Below are positions 49,677-60,823 of a DNA stretch of 64,000 nt, piece after piece. Source of the stretch: Chitinophagaceae bacterium (GTDB lineage: Bacteria > Bacteroidota > Bacteroidia > Chitinophagales > Chitinophagaceae); assembly GCA_023957755.1 (NCBI GenBank), contig JAMLGT010000006.1, positions 124,001 to 188,000 on the forward strand. Direction: 5' to 3'. Under the pieces are notes generated by a model. That model worked only from the letters and a program-made list of their open reading frames with translations. It did not search any database and was not told the DNA's origin. The first letter of the stretch is position 1; each line of letters opens with the position of its first letter. A program made the position numbers and the translations under genes.

Positions 49677-50858
49677 CTAGTGTGCATGTCCTCCCGATAA
49701 CCCTTTCTTAAGCAGGTACTCACTATTCAATAGATACACACCACTCACCACGACTTTATCACCTGCGTTTAATCCGGAAACTACAGCTACCTGCCGGTTG
49801 CTTTCTTCACCCAGTTTCACCTCCCGCCACTTGAAATTTCCTTCTCCTGTCTGTATCCAGACAATATTCTTATCCTTATCGCGGATGACTGCATCCACAG
49901 GCAGTACAGGAGTCTTTTCGGCTTTCCGTTCAAAAAGGACGTAGGCAGCCATTCCCGGTTTCAACACTTTGTTCTTGTTGGCTACTTCGATCCTAACCTG
50001 TGCCAGGCGACTGTCAGGCATTATCTCCGGACTTATAAATGCAATTTTTCCCGGAAGTCTTAACTCAGCTAAATCGGGAAAATCCAATTGTACCTTATCC
50101 CCCTCTCTCATTGTTGCCAACTGATTGGGATATACCTGTGCCTGTACCCACAGCGTACTGTAATCTGCAAGCCTCATTACCACATCTCCTGCCTGGACAT
50201 ACCCTCCCTCTAATATGGGGAGTTCAATAATAGTACCCGACACAGGGCTGTAATAGGTAGTCAGTCCCGGCGCCTTACCTTCCTTCTTTAAGGCCTCTAT
50301 CTGTGAAGAGGTAATGCCCATCACTTTTAATTTTTGTGCGGCGGCATCTATGATACGGTCGAAGTCCACAATGGAATTATCCAGTGTGCGCTTCTTTTCG
50401 ATTGCTGCAAGGTATTCCTGCTGTGCATTTCTCAACTCTTCACTGAAGATAGAAAAGACCGGTGCACCTCGGGGCACAAAGTCAGCCGTGTTCTTGTAGT
50501 ACAGTTTGTCGACTCTTCCCTGTATCCAGGAAGTGACTGTACTTGTCCTGCTTTCATCTTCTGTAACTACTCCGGTGAGCACATCCTTTGCTCCGACCCC
50601 CTCTTCAATAACCTGGGCCGTAACCACATTCGCAAGCCTGATCTGCTCTTCATTCAGCGACACCTCGTCGGGAGCAGATTGTGTGCGCTTTACCTTTATC
50701 AGGTCCATGTGACAGATAGGGCATAGCCCGGGCTTGTTTTCTACAATCTGTGGGTGCATACTACACGTGTAATAATATTCTGATGATACCAGCTCAGGTT
50801 CGGATGACTTACATGCCACCAGAAATAACAATGTGATGATGCTGATCCATTTTTTCAT
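49677..50858 (-). CDS. cusB: RND efflux periplasmic adaptor (CusB-like) with one heavy-metal-binding domain
   Basis: 393-residue lipoprotein (lipobox LVAC, Cys16). Residues ~29-56 form a metal-binding domain (TCSMHPQ...LCPICHMDL). Then comes the adaptor core: barrel-sandwich hybrid (GRVDKLYYKNTADFVPRG), helical hairpin (NAQQEYLAAIEKKRTLDNS) and C-terminal membrane-proximal domain (GLNAGDKVVVSGVYLL). Bridges the CusA pump to the TolC-like channel for Cu(I)/Ag(I) export. It is the last gene of the copper operon, 5 bp after a second, longer adaptor gene. The ending GGHAH may also bind metal. Confidence 0.9.
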   Translation of the reverse strand: MKKWISIITLLFLVACKSSEPELVSSEYYYTCSMHPQIVENKPGLCPICHMDLIKVKRTQSAPDEVSLNEEQIRLANVVTAQVIEEGVGAKDVLTGVVTEDESRTSTVTSWIQGRVDKLYYKNTADFVPRGAPVFSIFSEELRNAQQEYLAAIEKKRTLDNSIVDFDRIIDAAAQKLKVMGITSSQIEALKKEGKAPGLTTYYSPVSGTIIELPILEGGYVQAGDVVMRLADYSTLWVQAQVYPNQLATMREGDKVQLDFPDLAELRLPGKIAFISPEIMPDSRLAQVRIEVANKNKVLKPGMAAYVLFERKAEKTPVLPVDAVIRDKDKNIVWIQTGEGNFKWREVKLGEESNRQVAVVSGLNAGDKVVVSGVYLLNSEYLLKKGLSGGHAH

Positions 50859-50863
50859 AATCC

Positions 50864-52204
50864 TTACTTTTTTGTTACGATAAAACTCTCGCTATCTACC
50901 AGAAATCCCGCATTGGAAGCGACTGCCTCCTCCTGTTGCAAACCGTCCAGAATCTGAATCAGGTGGTTGCTCACAAGCCCTGTATTCACCTTTCGGGCCA
51001 CAAATCCATCCTGCTCTCTTACAAAAACTACCTTGTCCATTCCCAGCGAAAAGACAGCCTCCTCCGGCAACCACTGTGCTTTTTTATAACCGGTGAAGAT
51101 GATTGCCTTCACCACACTTCCTACAGGAAGCTGTAATGCCGAATTATCAAATGGAATTCTTGCGCTGAGGGTATTAGTCTCTGTGCCATAAAAAGGCAAC
51201 AGGTCTCTTATCTCTGTCCTGAAATCATTCCCGGAATTTCCCTCCGGTATTATCCTCGCCTTATTTCCTTTGCTCACCATATCTGCATATTGGGCAGGTA
51301 TCTGCAGGGTGATTCTTGCTTTCGAAGGATTGAATAACGAAAATAGCGTCTGCCCTTTCTCTACATACATACCTTCTTTAAGTGCAAGCGGCATAATGCC
51401 TCCTGCCGGTAATGGCACATCAGCAGGTGTACTGTTTTCATAAATAACGCCTGCCCTGTTACTATACACTGTCACCGAATACAGTGATTTTCCCGTGCGG
51501 GTAATTTGCGATATCTGTGCTGCACTCATCCCCATATTCAACAATTTCTCCCTAGCTGCATTTATGAGCGACTGGTTACCCGCATCCTGCTTTAATAAAA
51601 AAAGCAGGTTATTCTGTCCCGCCACAAGATCGGGACTATAGACATCTATCAACGGCTGACCCACGGTTATCTTCTGGTAACGATACCTGATGTACATCCT
51701 TGTAATTCGACCTGAAAATCTGGAAGCGACTGTGCCTGAATAATCGGGATTATATTCTACTACACCGGTTGCATTGACTTCGTCATCTTCATCACGATGA
51801 GCCATGTGCACCATCGGCACCTGGGCTACTACCGCCTGATTGGCGGGTTTCAATAACATCTCCAGAGAAAGTTCCAAAGGCTCGTTATCTGACTTTATCC
51901 TTTCCAACTTCATTCCACACACCGGGCAGTTGCCTTCGGAATCACTGTGTACCTGCGGGTGCATCGGACAGGTGAATCCTAAGGAAGCGGCTATTGAAGT
52001 GCTGTCGCTATGCTCATGTGGAGATTCCATCGGCACCAGATCCATCCCACACTTCGGACATCTGCCGGGCTTATCGCTAAACACGGAGTCTTCAGGCATT
52101 GGGCAGGTATATACTACCCCCGGCTCTCCTTTTACTTCGTGCTCAGTGCAGGAAAAGTAAATCAGCCCCAGCAAAGGAATTATCCAATAAAAAAATCTTT
52201 TCAT
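50864..52204 (-). CDS. cusB: RND efflux periplasmic adaptor (CusB-like) with two heavy-metal-binding domains
   Basis: 446-residue adaptor, lipoprotein-like N-terminus (Cys19). Two metal-binding domains: residues ~32-58 (TCPMPEDS...RCPKCGMDLVPM) and ~77-101 (TCPMHPQ...NCPVCGMKLERI). They are followed by the CusB core (RFSGRITRMYIRYRYQKITVGQPLIDVYSPDL) and a C-terminal domain. It shares its first base region with the stop of the TolC-like gene, so translation is coupled. Two different adaptors in tandem suggest either mixed hexamers or alternative partners for the pump. Metal is inferred from the neighbours (copper). Confidence 0.9.
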   Translation of the reverse strand: MKRFFYWIIPLLGLIYFSCTEHEVKGEPGVVYTCPMPEDSVFSDKPGRCPKCGMDLVPMESPHEHSDSTSIAASLGFTCPMHPQVHSDSEGNCPVCGMKLERIKSDNEPLELSLEMLLKPANQAVVAQVPMVHMAHRDEDDEVNATGVVEYNPDYSGTVASRFSGRITRMYIRYRYQKITVGQPLIDVYSPDLVAGQNNLLFLLKQDAGNQSLINAAREKLLNMGMSAAQISQITRTGKSLYSVTVYSNRAGVIYENSTPADVPLPAGGIMPLALKEGMYVEKGQTLFSLFNPSKARITLQIPAQYADMVSKGNKARIIPEGNSGNDFRTEIRDLLPFYGTETNTLSARIPFDNSALQLPVGSVVKAIIFTGYKKAQWLPEEAVFSLGMDKVVFVREQDGFVARKVNTGLVSNHLIQILDGLQQEEAVASNAGFLVDSESFIVTKK

Positions 52205-53484
52205 TATGCTGTAATTTGAAATAAGTTCATCAATTCCGACTGAATATCAAGTGCCTCTTTCAGCAGGTTTAACTGCTCATTCTTTGCATCAATCAGTTCC
52301 TGCCAGGCATCTAATAATTCCAGTATCTCGGTTTTATTCTGTTCAAACCCCAGGAGATTAACCTGAAAATTTTTCTCTAATGCGGGGATAATCTTTTCCT
52401 GATACAGTTTCATCTCCACCTGCACTCCGTTTCTTTCAATCCATTTTGTTCTAATAACAGTATAAGCTTCAGACAAAAATGCACGCTGAGATGCCTTCAG
52501 ACTTTCATTCTCCAGTTCCAGGCTCTTCACTTTTGCTTCGTTCATTTTAGACGACCACCTAGCCATCGGCAATTTCACCATACCCATCAGCGAAAACATC
52601 TGAGGCTGTCTTCCAAAGCCCGTCATGTGTTCGAACCGAATACCAAACTGAGGTTTTAATGCCATCTTTTCAGACTGAATCATCAATTGATTGGAGTACA
52701 TCTGTTGCTGAATACCCTTGTAAGCCGCATTCTGCATCAGCACAGTACTGTCACCTATCAATCCCGAAAAATCTACCCACTGTATGGTAGTATCCACCGA
52801 AAAATCTGCGGGTTGCTCTTCCAGCATGAGGGAGTGAATGAGTGACTTCTGTTTCACTTCATCTACCCTGATCAACTGGCTGTCTATCGATAATCTTGCC
52901 AGGGCAGCGGTGAGTTTATAATAAGAGTTAATATTACCCAGATCATTTTTGTATCTGATTTCAGCGCTCTGCATCATGAACCGGATCAGTTTTCTGTTCT
53001 GCTCAATCAGTTCCAGCTTTTTCGTTGCCAGCATTAATGAATAATACGCACCCCGCACACGTGTCATCATCTCATTTAGCATCTCCTGCTTCTTTTCCAG
53101 TTCCACACCACCCCTCGACTTCAGATAGTCGTATTGTGCCTGCTGCGCTTTCTTATTGGGAAACATCTGTTCTGCACTCACCATAAACATCCCCATTCCG
53201 GGCATACCGTTTTCCGACTTCCATTTCGACACATTGTACGGTGCCTGAAAGAATCCGGCTCCCACTTCCGGCGCCATCCACGAAAAAGCCCCTTCAGCTT
53301 CTGCATCCATTGCCTTTACCGATGCATCCACCATGCTGAATGCAGGATGCCTTTGCAGAATCTCGTCGCGAATCTCCTTAAAGGAACGAACAGGCTGAGC
53401 TACCACACTCATTGAGGACTGAAGGAGTACTGCGGCGAGCACCACCCTTCCACTATATTTTAATATGCTAATGATGGGTTTCAT
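52204..53484 (-). CDS. cusC: TolC-family outer-membrane channel (CusC-like)
   Basis: 426 residues from ATG 53484, giving a signal peptide (MKPIISILKYSG...SVVAQ). An ATG at 53502 is also possible. The long alpha-helical body shows repeating coiled-coil character (MLNEMMTRVRGAYYSLMLATKKLELIEQNRKLI and EILELLDAWQELIDAKNEQLNLLKEALDI), typical of outer-membrane efflux proteins. Forms the trans-envelope exit duct for the Cus-type pump. Its start overlaps the end of the pump gene by 17 bp and it is followed directly by the two adaptor genes. Confidence 0.9.
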   Translation of the reverse strand: MKPIISILKYSGRVVLAAVLLQSSMSVVAQPVRSFKEIRDEILQRHPAFSMVDASVKAMDAEAEGAFSWMAPEVGAGFFQAPYNVSKWKSENGMPGMGMFMVSAEQMFPNKKAQQAQYDYLKSRGGVELEKKQEMLNEMMTRVRGAYYSLMLATKKLELIEQNRKLIRFMMQSAEIRYKNDLGNINSYYKLTAALARLSIDSQLIRVDEVKQKSLIHSLMLEEQPADFSVDTTIQWVDFSGLIGDSTVLMQNAAYKGIQQQMYSNQLMIQSEKMALKPQFGIRFEHMTGFGRQPQMFSLMGMVKLPMARWSSKMNEAKVKSLELENESLKASQRAFLSEAYTVIRTKWIERNGVQVEMKLYQEKIIPALEKNFQVNLLGFEQNKTEILELLDAWQELIDAKNEQLNLLKEALDIQSELMNLFQITA

Positions 53485-55402
53485 ACACTTCAATTTTTCC
53501 ATATTTTTTTAATTCATATTCCTTTGACATCAGGAAGATCAAAGGTGTCACCAGGAGGATATGCGTGGCAGAAGTAATCACTCCACCCACCATCGGAAGA
53601 ATAATCGGAATCATCACATCACTTCCCACACCCGTACTCCAAAGAATGGGCAGCAGCGCAAATAATGCAATACTCACTGTCATTATCTTTGGGCGGAGAC
53701 GCTTTGCTGCTCCGGCAACCACATATTGTTCAAGGTCTTTTTTGGTAATCGTCTCGCGTGAATTTCCTTTAAGGGCAATCAGCTGTTGCATCGCATCATT
53801 CAGGTAAATCACCATTACAATACCCGTCTCTACTGCGATTCCAAACAATGCAATAAACCCTACAGCCACGGCAACCGACAAATTCACTCCCCAGAAATAC
53901 ACCATCAATGCGCCCCCAATCAAGGCAAACGGCAGACTGATAAGACTGAGGAACGCCTCACGCACACTATGGAAAGCAAAATACATTGAAAGGAAAATCA
54001 CAATCAATACCACCGGCAAAATCATCAATAATGTCCGTTCACTCCGAATCAGATTTTCATATTCACCACTCCACTCTACATAATAACCCTGTGGTAATTT
54101 TTTCACAAACGATTCCAATACTTCTTTAGCATCCTTCACAGTGCTCCCCAGATCGCGCCCTCTGACATTGAACAACACGGTACCCCGTAGCATTGCATTC
54201 TCACTGTTAATCATGGAAGGCCCTTCAGACACTCTTACATCAGCCACTGTCTGCAACGGAATAGGCCCGAATTGCGGAGTGCGTATCTGCAGATTTTTTA
54301 AATCGGTGAGGCTGCTTCTGAAATCCTGCCCAAATCGAGCATTAATCGAGAACCGTCTCCTGCCTTCCACTGTGGTGGTAATCGGTGTGCCACCTAAAGC
54401 CACTTCCACTACCCTGTTTACATCGTCGACTGAAAGTCCGTACCTGCTGATTTCATCGCGTCTGATGGCAATGTCAATATACTTTCCTCCTGTAATTGGT
54501 TCTACATACAGATCTTTCACCCCATCTACTCTTTCCAGTTCGCTCCTGAATGCCTGTGAAAGTGAATAAATCGTATCCAGGTTTTGTCCAAACACTTTCA
54601 GACCCACATCCGTACGAATACCCGTACTCAGCATATTGATACGATTGATAATTGGCTGTGTCCAGCTATTCACAACACCCGGAATCTGCAGTTTGGCATC
54701 CAGCTCTGCTACAATATCTGCTTTGGTAATTCCCTTGCGCCACTCCTTTTGCGGTTTCAAAAGGATAATGGTTTCGATCATACTGATCGGGCTGTTATCC
54801 GTAGCTGTATTGGCTCTGCCAGCCTTGCCCAACACATTCTTTACCTCAGGTACTGAAGCAATAATTTTATCCTGCACCTGCAAAATTCTTTTCACCTCTG
54901 TATTGCTGACATCCGGCATGGTGGTAGGCATAAACAATAAAGACCCTTCATCCAGCGGAGGCATGAACTCGCGCCCAAGACTAAACAACAAAGGCGCACT
55001 AATTGCAAGTGCCAGAATATTCACCGCTATGGTCGTCTTCCGATATTTGATACACTTCCTGATAATTGGAGTGTAAACTCTCTCCAGAAACCTGTTTAAT
55101 GGGTTCTTATTCTCAGGTACAAACTTCCCTTTCAGGAAAATCGCAATCAATGCAGGAGCCAGCAGAATTACCAGGATAGCATCCACAACCAAAATGAAAG
55201 TCTTGGTGTAAGCCAGCGGATGAAAGAGCTTTCCCTCCTGGCCTGTAAGGAGGAACACCGGCAGGAACGAAGTAATAATAATTACTGTCGAAAAGAACAC
55301 ACCACGCGATACCTGTTTGCACGCCCTGCCGATAAGGTCGAGCCTCACATCCTTCGGAATAGGGATATAAGATTTCTTCTTTTTCTTTTTAAACAATTTC
55401 AT
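53468..55402 (-). CDS. cusA: CusA/CzcA-type RND pump, C-terminal portion
   Basis: 644 residues equivalent to the C-terminal part of a CusA-family pump. It opens with a Lys-rich stretch (MKLFKKKKKKSYIPIPKD), then TM5 onward (GVFFSTVIIITSFLPVFLLTGQEGKLFHPLAYTKTFIL). The second periplasmic porter region contains MPTTMPDVS, GRANTATDNSPISM and GIRTDVGLKVFGQNLD, with the remaining TM helices to the C-terminus. Its ATG is in the same frame as the N-terminal ORF, separated only by a TGA (55411-55409) and two codons. Together they equal a normal full-length pump of about 1071 residues. It may be made by reinitiation or by readthrough. Confidence 0.88.
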   Translation of the reverse strand: MKLFKKKKKKSYIPIPKDVRLDLIGRACKQVSRGVFFSTVIIITSFLPVFLLTGQEGKLFHPLAYTKTFILVVDAILVILLAPALIAIFLKGKFVPENKNPLNRFLERVYTPIIRKCIKYRKTTIAVNILALAISAPLLFSLGREFMPPLDEGSLLFMPTTMPDVSNTEVKRILQVQDKIIASVPEVKNVLGKAGRANTATDNSPISMIETIILLKPQKEWRKGITKADIVAELDAKLQIPGVVNSWTQPIINRINMLSTGIRTDVGLKVFGQNLDTIYSLSQAFRSELERVDGVKDLYVEPITGGKYIDIAIRRDEISRYGLSVDDVNRVVEVALGGTPITTTVEGRRRFSINARFGQDFRSSLTDLKNLQIRTPQFGPIPLQTVADVRVSEGPSMINSENAMLRGTVLFNVRGRDLGSTVKDAKEVLESFVKKLPQGYYVEWSGEYENLIRSERTLLMILPVVLIVIFLSMYFAFHSVREAFLSLISLPFALIGGALMVYFWGVNLSVAVAVGFIALFGIAVETGIVMVIYLNDAMQQLIALKGNSRETITKKDLEQYVVAGAAKRLRPKIMTVSIALFALLPILWSTGVGSDVMIPIILPMVGGVITSATHILLVTPLIFLMSKEYELKKYGKIEVYETHH

Positions 55403-55408
55403 AACGGG

Positions 55409-56683
55409 TCAGCTTTTCGATTGATTTTGATATTCGGATAAATACCTGTAACTGTTTTCACTCATAATGATTCCATTATCCACAATCACACTGATGGCTA
55501 ATGCAATCCCTGTAAGCGACATAATATTTGAGGACACTCCAAAAAGATTCAACAGAATAAAACTTATGGCGATAGTAATCGGTATCTGAATGATGATGCT
55601 GATAGCGCTTCTCCAATGAAACAAAAAGAGAATCACAATCAATGCCACTATCGACATTTCTTCCACCAGCTTCCACTTGATATTGCTTACCGCAGCATCT
55701 ATCAGATCACTCCTGTCATAATCTACTTTAAAAGACACCCCCGGCGGAAGCCCTTTTTCTACTGATACAAGTTTTTCTTTCACAGCCGCAATCACCTTGT
55801 CGGCATTCTCGCCATAACGCATTACCACTATCCCGCCTACCACTTCACCGTTACCGTTGTCATCAAAAATACCTGTCCGAATATCACCTCCCATCTGTAC
55901 AGTCCCGATATCACGCACTTTTACCGGTACACCTTCTCTGTTAGCCACAGCTACATTTTCTATATCCTCCTTGTTTTTGATGTATCCCAATCCGCGCACG
56001 ATATAAGCCATATCACTCATCTCAAATTTCCTTCCCCCCACATCGTTATTGTTAGCTTTTACCTTGTCCACCACATCAGTAAGTGACACATTATAATATT
56101 GAAGTTTGACAGGGTCTAAGACCAGTTGATACTGCTTTTCAAAGCCACCAAAACTGGCCACTTCGGCGACTCCGGGTACGGTCTGCAACGCAAGTTTCAC
56201 ATACCAGTCCTGCAGTGCACGCTGCTCTCCCAGATCCATATTGTTTGCCTTTAGCGAGTACCAGAAGATATGGCCCACGCCGGTTCCGTCAGGGCCGAGA
56301 GAAGGCACTACCCCTTCAGGTAACAAGCGCTGTGCATAGTTCAATCGCTCAAGCACCCTTGTACGTGCCCAATACACATCCGTATTATCGTCGAAGATGA
56401 TATAGAGAAAACTCATTCCAAACATCGACGAAGCTCTGATGTCCTTCACCCGGGCCACCCCCTGAAGGTTAGATACCAGTGGATACGTGACCTGATCCTC
56501 TATTATCTGCGGACTACGCCCTGGCCACTCAGTGAATACTATAATCTGATTCTCACTCAGATCAGGTATTGCATCCACCGGATTATCCAGCATATTAAAT
56601 ATACCCCAGACAAAAAGTCCCAGGGCAAAGACCACTACGATAAACCTGTTTCGGATAGACCAGGAAATTGCTTTTGAAATCAT
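55409..56683 (-). CDS. cusA: CusA/CzcA-type RND pump, N-terminal portion
   Basis: 424 residues equivalent to the N-terminal part of a heavy-metal RND pump: TM1 (NRFIVVVFALGLFVWGIF), VDAIPDLSENQIIVFTEWPGRSPQIIEDQVTYPL-type porter sequence, and TM2-TM4 (IVALIVILFLFHWRSAI, IAISFILLNLFGVSSNIMSLTGIALAISVIVDNGIIMSEN). The proton-relay Asp in VIVDNG is present. The frame stops at TGA in a predicted cytoplasmic loop, just before the C-terminal ORF in the same frame. Follows the DUF3347 gene by 10 bp. Confidence 0.9.
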   Translation of the reverse strand: MISKAISWSIRNRFIVVVFALGLFVWGIFNMLDNPVDAIPDLSENQIIVFTEWPGRSPQIIEDQVTYPLVSNLQGVARVKDIRASSMFGMSFLYIIFDDNTDVYWARTRVLERLNYAQRLLPEGVVPSLGPDGTGVGHIFWYSLKANNMDLGEQRALQDWYVKLALQTVPGVAEVASFGGFEKQYQLVLDPVKLQYYNVSLTDVVDKVKANNNDVGGRKFEMSDMAYIVRGLGYIKNKEDIENVAVANREGVPVKVRDIGTVQMGGDIRTGIFDDNGNGEVVGGIVVMRYGENADKVIAAVKEKLVSVEKGLPPGVSFKVDYDRSDLIDAAVSNIKWKLVEEMSIVALIVILFLFHWRSAISIIIQIPITIAISFILLNLFGVSSNIMSLTGIALAISVIVDNGIIMSENSYRYLSEYQNQSKS

Positions 56684-56693
56684 AATTCAGTTT

Positions 56694-57296
56694 TTAATGG
56701 ATCGCTTCCTTCACAGTGCCGCAGGTGAGCATCTTATCGCCATAATAAGGATTCAGAATATCTTTTGAATCGCTCAGCCATGAAGAGCCACCCTCATACA
56801 TCGGGCAATATTGCCGGTATAACTCCTTTCCGGATTCAAAAGTGCTCACGAGCTTATGCATATTATTGCTCATCTCTATGAAGCTCTTCCTTTGCTCATC
56901 GAGCTTCGATTTGGCAATTGCCTGGGCACTCTGGCTGATTCCGGGCACTATCTGGTCAAAGTCAGCTTTCTCGTCACTTTTCAGAAAAGACTTGTCAAAC
57001 GATTTTAATTGTCCGGTGATGGCCTCTGCAGACTTTGCGGCAGTAGTTTCGTCACCTTTCACCAGTGCTGACTTCATGTCGAGATAGTCAGCAACCAGGC
57101 TCTTTACAAGGCCACCTACTTCTGCTCCCGGCTCCGCATACTTCGCTGAAACCATCACGATGTTTGCTTCATCATTCGCACTCATAGAAGCATGTGCTTC
57201 TGTTGCCGGTTGTTCGGTTGTTTCATTTTTCGCCTGTTGGTTGCAGGCAGCAAGCCCTACTACGAGCGCGCCCAAAAGGAAAATTTGCTTTTTCAT
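56694..57296 (-). CDS. DUF3347 lipoprotein of the copper operon
   Basis: 200 residues. Lipobox LAAC (Cys18) places it in the envelope. A Thr/Glu/Ala-rich linker precedes a helical DUF3347 domain (LVKSLVADYLDMKSALVKGDETTAA). The conserved C-terminal motif YCPMYEGGSSWLSDSKDI, ending in YYGDKMLTCG, has Cys/Met groups suited to Cu(I) binding; a copper-capture role is inferred from these and from its place just before cusA. The family is often fused or adjacent to CusB-like adaptors. Confidence 0.87.
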   Translation of the reverse strand: MKKQIFLLGALVVGLAACNQQAKNETTEQPATEAHASMSANDEANIVMVSAKYAEPGAEVGGLVKSLVADYLDMKSALVKGDETTAAKSAEAITGQLKSFDKSFLKSDEKADFDQIVPGISQSAQAIAKSKLDEQRKSFIEMSNNMHKLVSTFESGKELYRQYCPMYEGGSSWLSDSKDILNPYYGDKMLTCGTVKEAIH

Positions 57297-57450: not shown

Positions 57451-57837
57451 TCAGATTCTGAAATTGCAGTTCCGCGTGTAAATCGGAATGTCAGGTGGAT
57501 CCACCACACTGGCGCAAAATGCAGGTGCTTCTGTAACACGCTCTGCGTCATGCACCATAACCATAGCACTGAGCAATAAAACAGGCACTTGTGGTGAAGA
57601 AACATAGTCTGGTACCTGATGATCTACCGACAACTTTACAAAGTGATGCTCGTCCTTACAACATCCATTGTCACTGGCCTCCTGCTTTGCCATGTGACAG
57701 TTCTCACAAATAGCAGCCTCATCATAACCGATAGTAGTACCTAAATCTTTACCCATACAGAAGTGCATGGCCATTACAGTACCTACTGTAGAAAGGAAGT
57801 AAATGGTCGCAAATAATATGGCAGCTACTTTTTTCAC
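57451..57837 (-). CDS. HYC_CC_PP family small secreted protein
   Basis: 128 residues if started at GTG 57837 (VKKVAAILFATIYFLSTVGTVMA signal peptide). The only alternative is a TTG at 57969 with an implausible extension. The mature part shows the pattern that names the family: an MHFC segment (normally HYC), then CENCHM and GCCKDEH, and a late PP (DPPDIPIY). The Cys/His/Met richness suggests copper binding. It lies between the HMA chaperone and DUF3347 genes; the 154-bp gap that follows may hold an internal regulatory site. Confidence 0.75.
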   Translation of the reverse strand: MKKVAAILFATIYFLSTVGTVMAMHFCMGKDLGTTIGYDEAAICENCHMAKQEASDNGCCKDEHHFVKLSVDHQVPDYVSSPQVPVLLLSAMVMVHDAERVTEAPAFCASVVDPPDIPIYTRNCNFRI

Positions 57838-57972
57838 CGTAGTAAAGATATAGGTATTGTCTAAATAACGATATTGTTTAAGATATATTTTTCTTTTGCG
57901 CCCTGTCACCGGGCTGAATATACTGGCTGCCCCTCCCTGCTCATACGTTCTTGTAACGGGGCAGATCAAATA

Positions 57973-58197: not shown

Positions 58198-60597
58198 TTA
58201 ATCAATTCTCTTTGTCTTCAATCTGAGACTGTTGGTTACTACACTCACAGAGCTAAGCGCCATAGCTGCTCCGGCAATCATCGGATTCAGGAGAAATCCA
58301 TTAACTGGATACAACAACCCTGCAGCAATCGGTATGCCTATGACGTTATAAATAAATGCCCAGAACAGGTTTTGCTTTATGGTGCGCACTGTATTTCTCG
58401 AGAGCTTGAATGCCTGTGGTATCTTGTTAAGGTCAGGAGATATGATGGCCATCCTTGCTACATCCAGCGCGATGTCGCTTCCCTTACCCATCGCAATGCT
58501 CACATCAGCCTGGGCTAAGGCTGCACTATCGTTGATTCCATCCCCAGCCATTGCTACCACCTTCCTGGCAGACTGTAATTCCTTTACAAAGTCCTGCTTA
58601 AATGCCGGCGACACATTTGACTTCCAGTTGGTGATACCCACCTCTTTGGAAACCGCTGCTGCCGTAGCTTCGTGGTCGCCGGTAAGCATATACACCTCAA
58701 TCCCTTCCCGTTTCAATTGCTGAATGGCTTCCTTCGCCGAGTCTTTGATTTTGTCAGTGATACCGGCTAATCCTTTCACTTCACCATCTACAGCCAGATA
58801 AATAAGTGTATAAGCTCTTGCCGAAAACGCTCTCGCTTTTTCTTCAATACTAACAGGTATGGATACCTTGTTTTCGTTCATCAGTTTCAGATTTCCTGCC
58901 AAATAACCTTTTCCCTCAATAACCCCACGCAGCCCACCACCGGGCACATTTTCAAAATGATCAATATCAGGATAAGGGCCCTGGAGCGCCTTTGTCAAGG
59001 CATTTGCCAGCGGATGTTCTGAGCGGCTTTCCAATGAGGCCAGCTCGGCTTCGTAAGATTCATCAACCCAAAAAATTTCTGCTAGTGAAGGATTGCCTTC
59101 AGTTATGGTTCCCGTTTTGTCGAGCACCACTGCATTTACTTTCTTTCCTAACTCCAGGCTCTCAACATCCTTTATCAAAATCCCATTCTCAGCAGCCTTT
59201 CCGATTCCCACCATGATAGCTGTAGGAGTTGCCAGGCCTAAGGCGCAGGGACAGGCAATCACCAAAACCGTTACCAAAGCCAGCAGGCCGTGGACAGTAC
59301 CTTCACTACCACCTGCAAAATGCCAGATAATGAAACTAAGCAGTGCAATAATAATGACCACAGGCACAAATATCCCTGCTATCTTATCTACCAGATTCTG
59401 AACGGGCGCACGGCTTCCCTGCGCCTCGTCCACCATCTTAATTATATGGGCCAGCATGGTATCGCTACCAACCTTTTTGGCTTCAAAATTGAAACTCCCC
59501 TTCTGATTAATGGTTCCTGCAAACACCTCTGCTCCTTCATTCTTTTCTACGGCTAGTGGCTCCCCGCTAATCATACTTTCATCCACAAAAGAATTCCCTG
59601 ACAATACTTTTCCATCCACAGGAATTCGCTCGCCGGGTTTCACAATCAGCACATCTCCCGGAAATACCTCGCTTACGGACACTACGGCGGTTTCACCACT
59701 CGCCAGCACTTTAGTCACAGTGTCCGGCTGCAGCCCAATAAGCTTCCTGATTGCTGAAGAGGTATTTCCTTTTGCTCTGTCTTCCAGTAGCCGTCCCACC
59801 AGGATGAAGGCAATGATCACCCCTGCTGCTTCAAAATACACATGGGGTGTGATACCCCGCTTCAACCAAAAGTCCGGAAAAAACAGATTGAACAGGCTGA
59901 ACAGGTAAGCGATCCCTGTGCTCAGGGCAACCAGGGTATCCATATTCGCTTTCCTGTGCTTCAGTTGCTTCCACGCCCCCACAAAAAACTGTTTCCCGAA
60001 TACAAAAACCACAGGAGTAGATAATATCCACAATGCCCAATCTACATAAGGCACGTGCATAAAAAACATCCCCAGCACAATCAAGGGTACTGAAAATACG
60101 ACTGCCCATAAGGTATGACGCTTCAGCGTCCGGTACTGTTTCCGCTTTATCTGCTCCGCCGTATCACCCTGCGTATCTTCTTCCACCAATAGATCGTAAC
60201 CTATAGACTGGATAGCCGTCTTCATCTCCTGCGGACTAATAAGATTCGGGATATATTCGACCGCTGCCTTTCCATTGGCGTAATTCACTGTTGCCGACAC
60301 CACACCCGGTACATTCTCGAGCGTGCTTTGCACACTTACGGCACATGAAGCGCAACTCATATTCAACACCGGAAATTTTTCTTTCTCAGTCTGAAAGTCA
60401 AAACCTTCTTCCCGGATCGCCTTCACTGTATGCTGAAAGCTATCGATAGTAAACCCCGTATCTATCACCACCTTCTCTCCATTATTCTCCAGCCTTGGTG
60501 CCACTACCTCAGGCTCTGCAGTTAACCGCTTTAGCAACCTGTCGGCATCCTGACGATTTCTTACGCCCACTACAGGTATTTCGAGTTCCTTTTTCAT
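58198..60597 (-). CDS. copA: Copper-exporting P1B-type ATPase
   Basis: 799 residues from ATG 60597. Two N-terminal HMA-like domains: the first (residues ~5-75) has lost CxxC, the second has MSCASC near 85-90. Eight-helix membrane part with the Cu(I) motif [13 protein letters not shown]. Catalytic domains show the actuator [15 protein letters not shown], the phosphorylation motif [23 protein letters not shown], and the hinge [22 protein letters not shown]. Exports Cu(I) from the cytoplasm to the periplasm, where the Cus-type system would take over. First gene of the copper operon. Confidence 0.95.
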
Positions 60598-60704
60598 AAA
60601 TGCAAAGTTCAATCTTCATTCTCAGGATGTGTTACATGAATAAGGGAAAAATGTACAGATAAATAGGAAATTGATACATATCTACCTGAACTTATCACCT
60701 CGCG

Positions 60705-60784
60705 ACCCGAAACCCGAAACCCGAAACCCGAAACCTGAAACCTGAAACCTGAAACCTGAAACCTGAAACCTGAAACCTGAAACC
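60705..60784. repeat. Heptanucleotide tandem array (AACCCGA / AACCTGA)
   Basis: Partial ACCCGA, then three AACCCGA and seven AACCTGA units in strict 7-nt phase, ending AACC. It lies about 110 bp upstream of copA. A frame across it (60609-60860, minus) gives a repeated FQVSGFR peptide and is not accepted as a gene. Confidence 0.9.
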
Positions 60785-60823
60785 AAAAAGCCGGAACCAA
60801 TACCCACCCATCATAAAAAGAAA

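Follow-up and report, generated by a model that had tools for sequence, protein, structure and literature searches.

In textbook accounts, CusA-type pumps are single chains with 12 transmembrane (TM) segments. RND pumps may also be heteromeric, as is MdtB/MdtC, in which each subunit is a full-length permease, and many bacteria keep SecD and SecF, members of the RND superfamily, as two genes. SecD and SecF are fused in the Thermus form, which has a 2 x 6 TM layout (PMC8277102). The CusA-type permease described here, encoded in a 64,000-nucleotide stretch of Chitinophagaceae bacterium DNA (the window), has its nearest RND precedent in SecD/SecF, since in both cases the fold occurs as one chain or as two; however, SecD/SecF is divided 6 + 6 TM, between the repeats, whereas the split CusA is divided 4 + 8, within the first repeat. 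As in MdtB/MdtC, products of different genes would make up a single RND trimer (a CusA trimer being our proposal), but neither CusA half is full-length. E. coli CusA, of the CusCBA Cu(I)/Ag(I) efflux system (PDB 3k07), can be aligned end to end over the window's two chains, and the equivalents of its Met573, Met623, Met672, D405, E939 and K984 are all found in the window pump; E. coli CusA, however, is one chain, whereas the window pump is two, broken in the TM4–TM5 loop. The nearest unsplit relatives are one-chain CusA proteins of other Bacteroidota and of a Pelobacter propionicus plasmid, 52–54% identical to the C half. Unlike the split CusA, the one-chain Bacteroidota CusA is a single ORF of about 1049 residues, with a shorter loop and without a Lys-rich stretch. 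Databases already record the two halves as distinct genes; the literature searched, whose coverage took in few subscription journals, yielded no account of a CusA or RND permease split in this way. What we observe is the split itself, its presence throughout the orthologues, an origin placed once on the tree, purifying selection on both halves, key residues divided between them, and the operon. We consider it highly likely that the gene of a CusA-type heavy-metal RND permease underwent a stable fission, giving a conserved two-chain (4 + 8 TM) pump.

The two chains of the window permease

The features of the locus, all on the reverse strand, are as follows.

58198–60612, reverse strand: copper-type P-type ATPase, a same-strand neighbour
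56694–57296, reverse strand: DUF3347 lipoprotein-like gene, first in the conserved operon
55409–56683, reverse strand: CusA-N chain, 424 aa, TM1–4 and first periplasmic domain, with proton-relay residue D402 (E. coli D405)
55409–55411, reverse strand: TGA stop of CusA-N, its shared frame with the C chain being fortuitous
55403–55408, reverse strand: spacer CCCGTT, 6 nt from stop to ATG (CCCATC in the sister genome, L009)
53468–55402, reverse strand: CusA-C chain, 644 aa, TM5–12, with Met triad M158/M208/M257 and proton-relay residues E525 and K572
55370–55402, reverse strand: Lys-rich start of CusA-C, MKLFKKKKKKS; comparable Lys/aromatic starts in split orthologues, none in fused pumps
52204–53502, reverse strand: TolC-like outer-membrane efflux protein, overlapping the end of the C chain
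50864–52204, reverse strand: CusB-like adaptor with two heavy-metal-binding domains
49677–50858, reverse strand: second CusB-like adaptor, with one heavy-metal-binding domain

CusA-N starts with ATG; its TGA is followed by CCC GTT (Pro-Val) and then by the ATG of CusA-C at 55402–55400. The initial annotation had placed the two pump ORFs in the same frame, with the TGA at 55411–55409 and two codons between them, and had put the read-through product at about 1071 residues; both statements are confirmed, the length being 1071. It had also called both halves intact, and indeed the two chains together match the TIGR00914 (CusA/CzcA) profile over its full length (1–428 in CusA-N, 425–1036 in CusA-C), with no part missing. 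Taken singly, the chains score 467 bits (CusA-N) and 605 bits (CusA-C), short of the curated 701-bit cut-off; because each half falls below it, metal-resistance surveys that demand full-length matches may miss split pumps or call them broken. The locus thus carries the full profile of the CusA/CzcA family (TIGR00914, PF00873) but not its single polypeptide of about 1040–1070 residues. Because two ORFs are found here and in nearly all orthologues, the window pump is, by its sequence, a two-chain variant and not a standard CusA/CzcA member.

In the alignment to the solved E. coli CusA, the break is the short gap between the last and first aligned residues; we assign it to the TM4–TM5 cytoplasmic loop by an RND topology that we take to be established, in agreement with the site first proposed. 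The Lys-rich stretch said to follow the break is present, as the very start of CusA-C. An AlphaFold model of the read-through protein had a mean pLDDT of 51.5, too poor for use. Two further CusA-like proteins, distant paralogues at about 34% identity, are encoded in the window genome (L002 and L003; G000 C7:78023-79843 and C35:135798-137561); they are single ORFs of 1454 and 1462 aa, a length that an extra fused domain would fit.

The proton relay of E. coli CusA, which from the literature we take to be D405, E939 and K984, is divided between the window chains, with D402 in the N chain and E525 and K572 in the C chain. The equivalents of D405 and E939 are kept in all 107 split orthologues and that of K984 in 103 of the 107. 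The Met triad of the Cu(I)/Ag(I) type (E. coli M573, M623 and M672) corresponds to M158, M208 and M257 of the C chain and is likewise retained in 107 of 107. Because the relay residues are divided between the chains, neither half alone should be able to pump. A deep-branching split subgroup (L029, L140 and L141) has lost the K984-equivalent Lys (RVRPILMT or RVRPLLMT).

Both halves are under strong purifying selection. Compared with L009, dN/dS is 0.004 for CusA-N and 0.012 for CusA-C (dS about 0.23–0.33; dN 0.001 and 0.004, respectively), and in other close pairs it is about 0.02–0.05.

Distribution, fission and re-fusion of the split gene

The initial annotation had proposed a search for the same split in orthologues. 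More than 100 Bacteroidota orthologues, from several families, are cut at the same place, between TM4 and TM5, and a separate C-half ORF is found in every well-covered orthologue (59 relatives examined). The best 80 of 430 loci, drawn from named genomes of the Chitinophagaceae, Sphingobacteriaceae, Weeksellaceae, Flavobacteriaceae and Cyclobacteriaceae/Flammeovirgaceae, show in nearly every case an ORF for the N half and then one for the C half. In a phylum-wide sample, all places with at least about 53% identity and an ORF of 640–730 aa are split, and a more distant group (at most 54% identity) has single ORFs of about 1031–1187 aa. Of 64 N-half matches within the family to which the window belongs, 63 fall in short ORFs and the remaining one, in G482, falls in an ORF of 1057 aa. 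Moreover, finished plasmid records of Runella, Adhaeribacter, Mucilaginibacter and Hymenobacter carry two annotated ORFs, and NCBI labels each half 'efflux RND transporter permease subunit'.

Left out of these comparisons was L168 (G398), a lone C half at 42% identity whose N half was undetected within about 1.1 kb. L169 is a locus ended by a contig edge, L020 contains runs of N that make its apparent gap an assembly artefact, and an apparent internal stop in L062 was discarded as a match running over the junction. In L162, on a finished Hymenobacter radiodurans plasmid (NZ_CP037921.1), the C half matches in two pieces with only 1098 bp annotated, which may reflect decay of this copy or an error in it; its CusA-N has a class I SAM methyltransferase gene immediately upstream.

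On a tree built from 69 split and 20 fused representatives, one fission and one later re-fusion are the only changes of state required. The fission falls on the basal branch of the split group (support 94); the re-fused L066 and L086 nest within that group (starred branch, 98). G482 is 83–88% identical to these two, and the three fused genomes are close relatives, with proteins of 1057–1063 aa; the Lys-rich stretch is absent at the junction of the re-fused proteins. Long branches in the tree make the exact position of the root of the split group more doubtful than the placement of the re-fused clade inside it. Read from this tree, the CusA permease gene underwent one stable fission and, later, one re-fusion.

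The C-chain heads carry motifs such as MKxxFKK. From the chosen ATG to TM5 their mean net charge is +5.3 (n = 75 loci with both ends recognised, including nearly identical, non-independent ones); that of the corresponding whole loop in 10 fused pumps is +1.4. Such a charged head would fit the positive-inside rule, and may have adapted the C chain to inserting on its own.

The junction and the alternatives to a two-chain pump

The initial annotation described the pump as split by one in-frame UGA, in a leaky context with C following. The description does not extend to the orthologues, in which the stop of the N-half gene may be TAA, TGA or TAG and the halves stand in all three relative frames (0, 1 and 2 in 11, 23 and 35 of the 69 tree representatives), often with an ATGA overlap; because stops and frames vary in this way, the UGA–C context is irrelevant to the family. 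The commonest positions of the C-chain ATG relative to the stop are -4 (the ATGA overlap), +2 and +4 nt, taking for each locus the ATG closest to the preceding stop; automatic choice of the first ATG had produced long overlaps at some loci that were not real (for example, -77). Only 11 of the 69 representatives are in frame, against the one in three expected by chance given a split. The in-frame position of the window halves is incidental, and not above chance.

Programmed readthrough of the UGA, even at a low basal level, could yield some one-chain CusA in the window species, and the in-frame UGA followed by C speaks for it, as does the TGACCC retained in the nearly identical sister genome L009, where two changes have occurred in the 6-nt spacer. 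Readthrough cannot, however, be the mechanism of the family. On the tree, the relative frame shifts no fewer than 26 times; in most orthologues the halves are out of frame, among them L010, of the same genus and 92–93% identical; the in-frame ones mostly have TAA; and an in-frame stop, which a readthrough gene would keep, is not kept across orthologues. Moreover, in two genomes other genes separate the halves. In L015 (G010) a reverse-strand gene pair, encoding a PIN-domain protein (PF13470) and a small protein that resembles an antitoxin but matches no Pfam family, sits exactly between CusA-N and CusA-C, and in L125/L158 (G409) a methyltransferase-like gene does. Because the frame varies and genes intervene, the two-chain form must suffice in the relatives, and we regard readthrough in the window species as very unlikely. 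Frameshifting may join the halves in individual cases, but is unlikely as a mechanism of the family, frames and spacings being too variable for a conserved signal and two genomes having the intervening genes.

A recent nonsense mutation, or a decaying pseudogene, could produce such an arrangement in one genome with a single stop, and a sequencing or assembly error at 55409 is conceivable in a draft genome of 35 contigs. Both had been listed among the initial options, and both are contradicted by the same split in L009, in more than 100 other loci of several families and in the finished plasmid records; L009, an independent genome, has the same TGA, and the finished records of other species have two ORFs. 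The split is thus not confined to one genome, nor is selection relaxed: dN/dS is far below 1 in both halves, and the key residues are intact. The chance that mutation or decay explains the locus is negligible, and that of an error is equally minute. It is also highly improbable that the separate chains have ceased to work together as a pump, with another role taken on by either or both. Room for that reading comes from the fact that we infer two-chain assembly from sequence; against it, the halves remain adjacent and ordered in a copper operon, under similar constraint, the proton relay is conserved while divided across the chains, and a re-fused form exists. Among the options first raised, the evidence of conserved split, purifying selection and divided conserved residues supports the functional two-chain pump, in which the C chain may start by coupled reinitiation or by an initiation of its own.

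Operon context and a proposed assembly pathway

The order lipoprotein (DUF3347), N half, C half, outer-membrane efflux protein, adaptor, adaptor recurs across loci, often with a gene of the HYC_CC_PP family and a copper P-type ATPase gene nearby. An operon with adaptor and outer-membrane factor is as expected for a CusA of the Cu(I)/Ag(I) type. This context points to copper/silver efflux as the probable function.

Very probably the clade has an obligate two-chain RND pump whose relay site is assembled between polypeptides, and which arose once and was re-fused once. We propose that both genes share a transcript and are translated one after the other, probably aided by overlap or close spacing, so that the chains would be made separately. 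Each chain would have both termini in the cytoplasm and could therefore insert on its own, as a 4-TM N piece and an 8-TM C piece, with the Lys/aromatic start possibly helping insertion of the C chain. CusA-N and CusA-C would then pair into an ordinary 12-TM protomer, and three protomers would form a pump, presumably transporting Cu(I)/Ag(I), together with the TolC-like channel and the CusB-like adaptors that the operon also encodes. If so, a CusA-type pump tolerates, and has long kept, a cut beside the proton-relay helix TM4. It would be a natural split transporter, showing by what route a membrane pump of this size can be divided and joined again, and a natural system for the study of RND folding, insertion and assembly, with the re-fused relatives as built-in controls.

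The HYC_CC_PP family protein (NF047658) of the window is encoded at 57451–57969; it has 172 aa, contains His and Cys, and adjoins the split pump in many loci. Beside the copper ATPase, a 7-bp tandem repeat, ACCTGAA, in about 11 copies (60705–60798), lies inside a spurious 83-aa ORF.
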